A stretch of 64,000 nucleotides of DNA from positions 310,001 through 374,000 of the forward strand of contig NZ_JAJIRN010000001.1 in assembly GCF_025717515.1 (NCBI RefSeq). The letters are read 5' to 3'. The notes beneath the pieces are model-generated. The model was not told the DNA's origin. It did not search any database and saw only the letters and a list, made by a program, of their open reading frames with translations. The position numbers and the translations under genes are program-made. The stretch's first letter is position 1. Each line of letters starts with the position of its first letter. Origin of the DNA: Roseateles oligotrophus. Its GTDB lineage: Bacteria > Pseudomonadota > Gammaproteobacteria > Burkholderiales > Burkholderiaceae_C. This document shows, in pieces, positions 62,014 through 64,000 of the stretch.

Positions 62014-62979
62014 TCAACCGCGGCTGCGTGTATGGCCAAAGCTATGGGGCTCGGTGTCGGCGAAATGAAGTACTTCGAAGCTGACGATGGGCGATGTGGC
62101 ATCGACCGGCGGGCTGCCCAGGCCGATCACACCGTTGCCATGCAGGGTGCAACTGCCGCGCTTCAAGCTGACGACATCGCCGCTGCTGCCGAAGCGCACA
62201 AACGTGCCGTTATAGCTGAGGTCGGTGATCGAGAAACTGCCTGCATGCCAGTCGATCCTGGCATGCGAGCGCGACACCCGAGCATCGGTGATGCAATAGG
62301 TGGCTTGCACGCTGCGGCCCAAGATGATCGGCATATTGTCGATGTCAAACACCCGGTCCAGATCCAGCCAGACCAGTCTGATGCCGTCGGGTTCGACCGC
62401 ATGCTGAACCTCGCCAAACTGCGTGGCGGCCACATCGCCCTGTATGGCTTGGTCCAGCACATGGACATGCACCGGCTCGGCGCGGCCGCGTATGGCGATC
62501 AGGTCGAGGCTGCGAAAGCGCAACTTCTTGGCCGTCGGCAGACCGGCCAAGACCTCGGTGGTGATCAAGGTTTCGTTGTCGCCGGCATGGTTCAATAAAC
62601 GCGCGGCGACGTTGACCGCGTCGCCGAAGCAATCGCCATTCATTTCGACCACTTCACCACGCGCCAAGGCCACCTGCATGCGCAAGGCCCGCAGGCTCGG
62701 CGAGGCGCCTTGCTGCCTGCCGCGAGCTACCACGCGTTCCAGCATTTCATGCATGCGAATGGCCGACAGCACGCCGTCGTTGGGCGACTCGAAGACGGCC
62801 ATCAAACCGTCGCCCAATGTCTTGACCAAGCGACCTCTGCATTCATCGACGGCCTGCGCAATCAAGCCCACCGTTTGCGTCACCAGGGACGTCGCTTCGG
62901 CATTGCCCAGCGTCTCGAAAAGCCCCGTGCTGCCACGCAGATCGGCGAACAAAACAGTGCGTTCCCGGATTTGGGTCAT
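62014..62979 (-). CDS. class III nucleotide cyclase with C-terminal FHA domain
   Basis: A 321-residue cytoplasmic protein. The N-terminal class III cyclase homology domain keeps both metal aspartates (Asp13 in LFADLRGSTG, Asp57 in KTLGDGL), a lysine typical of ATP recognition (Lys53), and the Asn123 and Arg127 of GDAVNVAARL, so it may be an active adenylate cyclase. The C-terminal FHA domain shows IILGRS, SRSHARIDW and YNGTFVRF, and would bind a phosphothreonine peptide. There is no membrane segment. Partners and product are unknown; no kinase gene is nearby. It is 35 bases upstream of hemH. Confidence 0.85.
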   Translation of the reverse strand: MTQIRERTVLFADLRGSTGLFETLGNAEATSLVTQTVGLIAQAVDECRGRLVKTLGDGLMAVFESPNDGVLSAIRMHEMLERVVARGRQQGASPSLRALRMQVALARGEVVEMNGDCFGDAVNVAARLLNHAGDNETLITTEVLAGLPTAKKLRFRSLDLIAIRGRAEPVHVHVLDQAIQGDVAATQFGEVQHAVEPDGIRLVWLDLDRVFDIDNMPIILGRSVQATYCITDARVSRSHARIDWHAGSFSITDLSYNGTFVRFGSSGDVVSLKRGSCTLHGNGVIGLGSPPVDATSPIVSFEVLHFADTEPHSFGHTRSRG

Positions 62980-63335
62980 GGTTGATGAATGAAAGAATAA
63001 ATGGTCAGGCGTGAAATTATGCGCAGTGTAGCCGGGCTGGATGGCACCGTCGTTTTAGAGGGTTAAGCGAAAAAAAGGGGCTGGATTGCTCCAGCCCCTT
63101 TTTGATCCGATCAAGCAGTGATCAGAGCTTATCCAGCTATGTCCTGAGCTTGTGCCTGCGGCGCAAGTTCAGTTATGTCCGCTGCGCGGCCACGACCGCC
63201 GTTGGCGGCACATACCCAGGCAACTTGATTACAAGTTGTCCAAGTATGTCCTGAGCTTGTGCCTGCGGCGCAAGCTCAGTCATGTCCGCTGTGCGGCCAC
63301 GACCGCCGTCGGCGGCATATACCTAGGCAACTTGA
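62980..63335. other. intergenic region between the cyclase gene and rpoD
   Basis: About 355 bases. The left 90 bases must hold the promoter of the cyclase gene on the minus strand only if read from 62980 upward; no clear -35/-10 pair was recognised. The rest holds the rpoD terminator and the 107-base repeats. No gene was seen. Confidence 0.6.
63071..63103 (-). terminator. intrinsic terminator of rpoD
   Basis: AAAAAGGGGCTGGA and TCCAGCCCCTTTTT form a 14-pair stem around TTGC. It works on either strand by symmetry; by position it ends the rpoD transcript after the repeats. Confidence 0.85.
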
Positions 63336-63365
63336 TTACAAGTTGTCCAAGTATGTCCTGAGCTT
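63122..63365 (-). repeat. 107-base tandem repeat carrying copies of the rpoD 3' end
   Basis: Two 107-base units (63138-63244 and 63245-63351) are nearly identical. On the minus strand the last ten rpoD codons (KLRTYLDNL plus stop) occur at 63336-63365 (the real end) and 63229-63258 (an exact copy). At 63122-63151 there is a diverged copy reading KLRT, stop, LDKL, stop. The spacing is exactly 107 bases each time. Each unit also holds a hairpin, GAGCTTG[T/C]GCC with GGCGCAAGCTC, and a second GC-rich palindrome near GCCGCCGACGGCGG. Confidence 0.9.
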
Positions 63366-64000
63366 GTCCGAGCGGCTTGGGTGCTTGAGCTTGCGGATCG
63401 CCTTGGCTTCGATCTGACGAATCCGCTCGCGCGTCACGTCGAACTGCTTGCCGACTTCTTCCAGCGTGTGGTCGGTCGACATCTCGATGCCGAAGCGCAT
63501 GCGCAAGACCTTGGCTTCGCGCGGCGTCAGGCTGTCGAGGATGTCTTTCACCACATCGCGCAGACCCGCTTGCATCGCGGCTTCGATAGGCGCGGTGTTG
63601 TTGGTGTCCTCGATGAAGTCGCCCAGATGCGAATCGTCGTCGTCGCCGATCGGCGTTTCCATCGAGATCGGCTCCTTGGCGATCTTCATGATTTTGCGGA
63701 TCTTGTCCTCGGGGATCTCCATCTTCTCGGCCAGCGTCGGCGCATCCGGCTCGAAGCCGAATTCCTGCAAATGCTGACGCGAGATGCGGTTCATCTTGTT
63801 GATCGTTTCGATCATATGAACCGGAATCCGGATGGTGCGGGCCTGGTCGGCGATCGAGCGGGTGATGGCCTGACGGATCCACCAGGTCGCATAGGTCGAG
63901 AACTTGTAGCCGCGACGGTATTCGAACTTGTCGACCGCCTTCATCAAACCGATATTGCCTTCCTGGATCAAGTCAAGGAACTGCAGGCCGCGGTTGGTGT
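63336..64000 (-). CDS. rpoD: RNA polymerase primary sigma factor, C-terminal part (gene continues beyond window)
   Basis: Sigma-70 regions 2.1 to 4.2 are present. Region 2 has [20 protein letters not shown] and [20 protein letters not shown], which recognise the -10. Region 3 starts at [20 protein letters not shown]. Region 4 has [20 protein letters not shown], the -35 helix-turn-helix, and ends [13 protein letters not shown]. The frame stays open to base 64000, so the N-terminal part lies outside. The 3' end is followed by two further copies of its last codons. Confidence 0.97.

Follow-up and report, generated by a model that had tools for sequence, protein, structure and literature searches.

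Copies of the rpoD end in the window

The end of rpoD, the primary sigma factor gene, occurs three times in a stretch of 64,000 nucleotides from Roseateles oligotrophus (contig NZ_JAJIRN010000001.1, positions 310,001 to 374,000; hereafter the window), which raises the question of whether the copies arose by local duplication or belong to a small element that uses gene ends. In this bacterium and some of its relatives, short self-folding units stand at the rpoD end, supply the working copy of the last ten codons and can stack in tandem.

The gene is encoded on the minus strand, with its end at 63336. As claimed in a preliminary description of this DNA, its end recurs at steps of exactly 107, at 63336-63365, at 63229-63258 as an exact copy and at 63122-63151 as a diverged copy that reads KLRT, stop, LDKL, stop; the claimed length of 30 nt is slightly short, in that the clearly copied part comprises 32 nt (ACAAG to the stop codon, 63336-63367). 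This ACAAG...TAA segment is repeated exactly 107 nt downstream and in diverged form 214 nt downstream, before a terminator-like repeat. The two 77-nt spacers, described as nearly identical, share 92% identity. TRF finds a single array at the rpoD end (period 107, 2.1 copies, score 418), which is the top of its 6 rows for the window. The array consists of two 107-nt units at 63154-63367, each composed of a 32-nt gene end and a 75-nt spacer, followed by the decayed rpoD end and the terminator:

63336 to 63998, minus strand: 3' part of rpoD (primary sigma factor); an open reading frame that continues past the window edge
63261 to 63367, minus strand: unit 1, 107 nt, the last 32 nt of rpoD plus spacer; source of the working C-terminus
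63154 to 63260, minus strand: unit 2, 107 nt, with the anatomy of unit 1, non-coding
63122 to 63153, minus strand: distal decayed copy of the rpoD end, then a flank resembling unit-free relatives; probable native end
63072 to 63103, minus strand: terminator-like inverted repeat 3' of the units, GGGGCTGGAGCAATCCAGCCCC plus a T run

The 220 residues encoded by the 3' part of rpoD are 100% identical in 15 of the 17 matched genus genomes, the present one included.

Fold of the units

Each of the two units, folded alone, forms a cloverleaf made up of a closing stem and three hairpins, to which the linker adds a small hairpin; the loop of hairpin 1 contains the stop codon, and the KLR codons are paired in the closing stem with an arm just before the linker, which reads GCCgcaGGC in both units. 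The parts of unit 1 are as follows, with the basis of the assignment in brackets where it applies:

63355 to 63367, minus strand: F, ACAAGCTCAGGAC, containing the 5' arm of the closing stem (KLR codons)
63319 to 63354, minus strand: hairpin 1, the last codons, the stop codon in the loop and their reverse complement (fold and pair counts)
63302 to 63316, minus strand: hairpin 2, GCCGCC/GGCGGT (fold)
63281 to 63301, minus strand: hairpin 3, CGTG.CCGC/GCGG.CATG (fold)
63271 to 63279, minus strand: F', the 3' arm of the closing stem, CTGAGCTTG (pair counts and fold)
63261 to 63270, minus strand: linker CGCCGCAGGC, a small hairpin that adjoins the ACAAG of the next copy

The fold of the minus strand at 63060-63400, terminator included, is 9.9 s.d. 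better than that of shuffled sequences, none of 100 equalling it, and the individual units reach z values of -5.3 (unit 1) and -3.0 (unit 2), with 0 of 200 shuffles as good in either case. Covariance model R1 scores the two units at 95.7 and 96.1 bits, respectively. Among 11 units of the genus, every lowest-energy fold includes the closing stem and 8 have three separate hairpins, hairpins 2 and 3 being merged in both units of G003 and in G010; the closing stem is absent from the lowest-energy fold in G304, which carries five units. Most units are 100-110 nt long, with a range from 79 to 125.

Synonymous changes in rpoD are accompanied by matching downstream changes in the 11 genus units, 8 of which are the working gene end. 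In the closing stem and hairpin 1 of these units, 94.7% of the cells are paired, compared with 84.5% in shuffles and at most 39.9% with slid partners. Cells changed on both sides number 29 vs 11.8 and the covariation is 0.357 vs 0.181, neither value being reached by any of 500 shuffles. Two of the five shuffle measures are not exceeded by the real units; the 8 pairs changed on both sides are reached by 46 of 500 shuffles, and the 15 further pair types by 496 of 500. Conservation is poor in hairpins 2 and 3, which are not copies of the gene end. The F' arm pairs better with its own F in 11 of 14 cases, equally well in 1 and better with the next F in 2, a comparison that is biased by the choice of F' as the best partner of its own F and is not relied on.

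One explanation for the strong fold and the matched changes in codons and UTR is a functional RNA in the rpoD 3'UTR, in which the cloverleaf would sense terminating ribosomes or protect the mRNA end and the copy number would be incidental. The position of the units agrees with such a role, since they lie between the stop codon and a similar terminator repeat in 7 of the 8 unit-bearing loci of the genus (in the eighth, G013, the contig ends first). However, the counts of double-changed pairs and of pair types are within the reach of shuffles, hairpins 2 and 3 show little conservation, the closing stem is not part of the lowest-energy fold in G304, no Rfam family is matched at the gathering cut-off in 11 loci, and units at rpoD are found in 36 of 399 family genomes and are absent from 6 of 17 in the genus. 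A functional RNA is an unlikely explanation.

Unit number and the native end

The copy number varies among genomes of the genus. The gene was matched in 17 of 18 genomes of the genus (rpoD of G015 was not recovered), and by our reading of the loci, 3 of the 17 ends carry at least two units (G000, G003 and G013), 5 carry one (G005, G006, G009, G010 and G014), 3 carry remnants (G004, G008 and G011) and 6 carry none (G001, G002, G007, G012, G016 and G017, the last with 176 nt visible downstream). A hairpin over the stop codon is retained in G002. Contigs of draft genomes break within arrays (L139 at the start of G013:C3; L151 and L185 in G219:C216 and C277); therefore, the true number of units in a draft genome can be higher than the number counted.

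The working end comes from the proximal copy, and comparison of the flanks agrees with the earlier view that the distal copy resembles the native one. TC or CC follows the stop codon in 9 of 10 unit-free ends (the exception, G016, has TA), in 10 of 23 last copies and in 3 of 32 unit copies. Both units of the present genome are among these 3 exceptions, so the argument for a native end here comes from the distal flank, CTCTGATCA, which resembles G001 and G007 over a longer stretch. To judge from this flank, the copy at 63122-63153 is probably the native rpoD end. In G016, the interval from the rpoD stop to the terminator contains a different repeat (L008, core GAGCTCTGACCCCAACT) and no gene-end copy; a 21-base partial likeness to the gene end is located 433 nt downstream.

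Breadth in the family and recurrence at other genes

A covariance model of the units was searched against 399 family genomes at E 0.01, with stricter filters that may have missed some matches. Matches are found in 42 genomes, and 36 genomes from 22 of 141 genera (genera counted from the list) have a match at the rpoD end, some of them only remnants. All 30 loci that were inspected are at the rpoD end; among the other 12 genomes, six match at rpoD and two at glmS, metK and an enoyl-CoA hydratase-like end account for one each, and two match in coding sequence. Arrays reach five units in G304, a genome consisting of a single contig, which has 100-nt units whose spacers are identical or 1% apart; G159 has two units, and within each of these genomes the units are identical or nearly so.

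When the model was loosened to E 0.3, 36 further places were obtained, of which 5 are at rpoD ends (2 decayed, one 64-nt mini-unit and 2 without a clear unit), and none of the 36 shows a repeated end at another gene at 18/24. The mini-unit (L333, in G175) consists of the gene end, short arms and a linker-like stretch, lacks hairpins 2 and 3 and could be a minimal or deleted form. In 80 named records, one of which is G006 and one of which has no readable end, no downstream copy stands clearly above shuffles; an Aquabacterium MAG (L060) has by eye a hairpin 1 remnant and a second gene end, which do not exceed shuffles.

The same layout, with arms that match the new host gene, is found at glmS in two genomes and at metK in two. 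At glmS of G136 and G358, a long closing stem, hairpin 1 around the stop codon, two further hairpins and the linker GCGGCGCAGGC precede a second copy of the gene end, and the G136 unit folds into the same cloverleaf as at rpoD (z -7.8). At metK of G324 and G257, the unit begins with ACAAG and ends in the linker TTGCGCCG(C/A)AGGC, after which another metK end starts from ACAAG; the fold of the G324 unit has the topology seen at rpoD, although with little strength (z -1.5, equalled by 19 of 200 shuffles). The glmS loci and metK of G324 came from weak covariance-model matches and metK of G257 from a pattern. Both searches select for the linker, and the model additionally selects for ACAAG at the start; because neither selects for the direct repeat, the latter constitutes independent evidence at glmS and metK. 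An enoyl-CoA hydratase-like gene in G088 also has a repeated end and a stop-codon hairpin, with a different junction and a looser resemblance. Two loci that contain the linker (L201 and L203) were judged not to be units. A search with the glmS spacer in four genomes, with 30 loci inspected, yields a repeated gene end at the glmS loci only, one other place reaching 18/24.

Lineages of units and foreign-looking codons

A tree of 36 units splits into lineages A (17) and B (19) with support of 95/99. Both lineages are present in one array in G114 and in G013, and a joint clade is rejected by AU tests (p 0.0019 and 0.010, respectively; the pairs were named after the units had been seen, and the alignment has 109 columns). 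Read by eye, G345 has an A unit followed by a decayed B-like copy, in G114 a B unit is followed by an A unit, and G347 has B followed by an A-like copy; the order within arrays is not fixed. On a tree of 47 rpoD bodies, the number of changes is 9 for the type at the coding end (on average 11.2 with shuffled labels, and as few in 251 of 2000 shuffles) and 12 for unit presence (as few in 1049 of 2000), where the A/B labels were read from the unit tree, remnants were scored as absent, and both the unit tree and the rpoD tree have few supported forks. The distribution of both characters is close to random, with hardly any signal of inheritance. Similarly, unit distance does not track third-position distance in rpoD (r 0.055 for 528 pairs of 33 proximal units), and the closest cross-genus pair has values of 0.09 vs 0.21. 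A and B could be ancient paralogues within an ancestral array.

These results bear on tandem slippage, which the preliminary description regarded as the simpler explanation. Units 1 and 2 of the present genome are sister units (98/93 support), as an old local duplication would leave them, and slippage probably made the near-identical arrays. Slippage alone nevertheless fails because of the mixed A/B arrays, the near-random distribution on the rpoD tree and the recurrence at glmS and metK; the AU tests disfavor it, and the cloverleaf at the level of the single unit and the native-like distal flank are likewise at odds with it. As the whole explanation, it is very improbable.

The gene end borne by the units has unusual codons. 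The end arginine is AGG or AGA in 10 of 47 cases, compared with 5 of 847 arginines upstream (Fisher p 1.5e-10, with related genomes treated as independent). Third-position differences amount to 0.43 in the last nine sense codons vs 0.22 in the 52 before, a value that exceeds all 44 upstream 9-codon windows (maximum 0.30). By its codons, the borne gene end looks foreign in origin, but codon use at gene 3' ends may be unusual for other reasons.

Searches for dispersed copies, carriers and enzymes

The preliminary description had also raised a mobile palindromic element, to be recognized by dispersed spacer copies or by a variable unit number. In the present genome, the spacer is found at rpoD only (next match E 0.03), whereas the unit number varies within the genus; by that test, the idea is therefore half refuted and half supported. 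No dispersed unit copies were found in this genome, where a 13-mer of the linker occurs at 11 places and lies within a unit at the two rpoD places only; in the genus, the 17-nt linker motif has exact matches at rpoD only and two one-mismatch places elsewhere. No second repeated gene end was found among 1812 ORF ends (many of them spurious) in 464 kb of the present genome (approximately 14 kb counted twice), the best place outside the array, an ambiguous one, reaching 20 of 24 bases. The same scan of 400 kb each of G304 and G136 gives nothing convincing apart from rpoD; one 20/24 match in G136 lies inside apparent coding sequence.

Related DNA is absent from the 50,697 phage and 72,556 plasmid records searched, and viral contigs contain no exact match to three patterns. 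The 107-nt unit carries no integrase gene or any other gene. Neither of the HUH transposase families Y1 and Y2 tracks the units in a way that would explain the arrays: Y1_Tnp (PF01797, the family of the RAYT transposases) is found in 21 of 33 unit-bearing vs 34 of 38 unit-free genomes and Y2_Tnp (PF04986, the family of IS91-like rolling-circle elements) in 12 of 33 vs 7 of 38, with 4 and 1 matches in the present genome, respectively. The 38 genomes classed as unit-free have no model match at E 0.01 and no unit seen, and include G008, with a remnant, and G015, whose rpoD was not recovered. Both families are missing from G304 and G159, which carry identical units. It is possible that a transposase was lost later or is supplied from outside.

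Rfam gives only sub-threshold matches at 62500-64000 of the window; those to CsrC, RsmZ, BjrC68 and mir-2558 were taken as the terminator or chance, and no tRNA or known RNA was found at the site. A published description of such units was not found in a literature search that lay outside most subscription papers and all bioRxiv preprints.

Junction, linker and possible template switching

Of the 32 rpoD copies that follow a unit, 31 start with ACAA (22 ACAAG and 9 ACAAA) and one with CCAAG, and the base before the junction, which is G in the gene, is C in all 32 (one copy, in G033, was re-registered by two bases for this count). The repeat likewise begins at ACAAG at metK (L181 and L213) and in the second glmS copy (L177). 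Further upstream, the linker has GCCGC at positions -9 to -5, where 29, 20, 28, 26 and 22 of the 32 copies agree with the gene. In view of this agreement, the repeat may have extended approximately 10 nt further upstream at one time. Either the junction is fixed at G^ACAA and the GC-rich match beyond it is chance-like, or the duplication was formerly longer. In the window, the linker GCCGCAGGC (63261-63270 and 63154-63163) resembles the rpoD codons just before the unit at 63368-63379 (GCCGCTCGG), and this likeness suggests that it may be an old, altered copy derived from rpoD. The metK linker matches the rpoD linkers and not the metK sequence upstream.

An explanation without mobility is that template switching during replication, as in quasi-palindrome correction or small inverted duplications, produces a reverse-complement copy of the gene end and maintains the match between the arms, while tandem duplication and deletion between the 32-nt repeats set the unit number and A and B are old paralogues. 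According to one report, template switching creates hairpins in one step and perhaps helps to maintain hairpin pairing, the latter being less clear according to its authors (PMC8794818). The arms of the units are indeed reverse-complement copies of local sequence, matching the local gene at rpoD, glmS and metK alike. The identical or nearly identical units of G304 (five) and G159 (two) are as slippage would give, the present genome has a single locus, and the GCCGC shared by the linker and the gene upstream of ACAAG is as expected from an old, longer duplication. However, a linker common to rpoD and metK is unexpected from template switching, as are unrelated units within one array, and hairpins 2 and 3 are not gene-end copies. 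As to the junction, which template switching would leave free, ACAA starts 31 of the 32 rpoD copies, but a weak likeness persists further upstream. Template switching with local duplication is possible, though not probable, and is a close rival of the explanation that follows.

A gene-end cassette as the favored explanation

The anatomy of the units, their variable number, the mixed arrays and the recurrence at glmS and metK have been demonstrated here, and the reading that we favor, tentatively and at somewhat short of an even chance, is that of a non-coding gene-end cassette: on arrival ahead of the last codons, it would restore the gene and push the native end away. The cassette would be a cloverleaf palindrome bearing a working copy of the last 10-14 codons of its host gene, and its point of entry, or of copying, would lie immediately ahead of those codons, at or close to G^ACAAG. 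The gene would thereby keep an intact end, and the native end would be pushed downstream as a decaying copy. Later entries at the same place would produce arrays of alternating lineages in which older units give way to newer ones, and slippage across the 32-nt direct repeats would lengthen or shorten the arrays and multiply identical units. The units would move between genomes or loci, presumably as a folded single strand and by means of an enzyme acting in trans.

Because the arms match each host gene, a copying step is needed. Our guess is that the arms come to match a new host gene through hairpin-primed copying of its end; such synthesis, primed by a hairpin as happens in template switching (PMC8794818), would suit this step naturally. 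The cassette and template switching may share part of their chemistry and differ in whether units travel. The cassette reading is weakened because no enzyme and no excised form were found, because the unit of the present genome sits at one gene and because arms that match a new host gene are unexpected of an ordinary transposon. For the mobile element of the preliminary description, recurrence at glmS and metK and the mixed arrays favor more than slippage, but the spacer is found at rpoD only in the present genome; mobility of the units is plausible and unproven.

It is rather doubtful, although worth stating, that the units represent a new class of mobile DNA, namely gene-free cloverleaf cassettes of approximately 100 nt at the 3' ends of essential genes, which would carry the last codons, travel in the form of folded single strands and rebuild their arms from the gene end entered, so that one lineage could pass from rpoD to metK or glmS. 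If the units move, a gene-free parasite has its niche at the ends of essential housekeeping genes and replaces the last codons of rpoD with no change in the protein, so that a comparison at the protein level would miss it. If they do not, the loci of 22 genera preserve a natural history of coding and non-coding arms that have stayed matched, which is relevant to how compensatory changes arise.

Comparison with known systems

Phages, ICEs and IMEs that integrate at gene 3' ends are kilobases long and encode an integrase. As with these elements, the incoming DNA would restore the gene end and leave a second copy at the far side, with repeated entries stacking in tandem, and a direct repeat of the gene end is found on both sides of the units with the gene restored; in contrast, the unit has approximately 75 non-coding nt beyond the gene end and no integrase. 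Integron cassettes with attC form arrays of units that enter at one junction and use a structured single strand, features that the present arrays would share, whereas no integrase and no cassette gene are present here. REP/BIME and RAYT systems involve short palindromic non-coding units between genes. The rpoD units are similarly short, palindromic, non-coding and intergenic, but part of each unit is coding, many dispersed copies are lacking in the present genome, and the Y1 transposase is missing from 12 of 33 unit-bearing genomes.

In Rickettsia palindromic elements, palindromic DNA joins a protein-coding gene without destroying it. Here, palindromic DNA also lies within a coding gene that is kept, although the end of the gene itself is re-supplied, leaving the RpoD end unchanged, and the unit is not dispersed. 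Template-switch mutations and tandem inversion duplications likewise give a gene end, its reverse complement and then a direct copy; unlike these, the units have a linker common to two genes, two extra hairpins and mixed lineages.

Other repeats

Several other repeats were noted. On the minus strand near G000:C1:382989 (L269), 20 of the 24 bases at a short ORF end are repeated 125 nt downstream (CCCGCCAACGGCCTGA), with some likeness to hairpin 2 of the rpoD unit that is perhaps due to chance. In G304:C1:1-140000, three GC-rich palindromic arrays of approximately 77-79 nt (L273, L275 and L279; GGCCCGGCGCCCGGCCGCCCG...) each consist of several near-identical copies and show no sign of a gene end. 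TRF also reports short GC-rich tandem repeats of 12 and 24 nt at 1464-1562 of the window.
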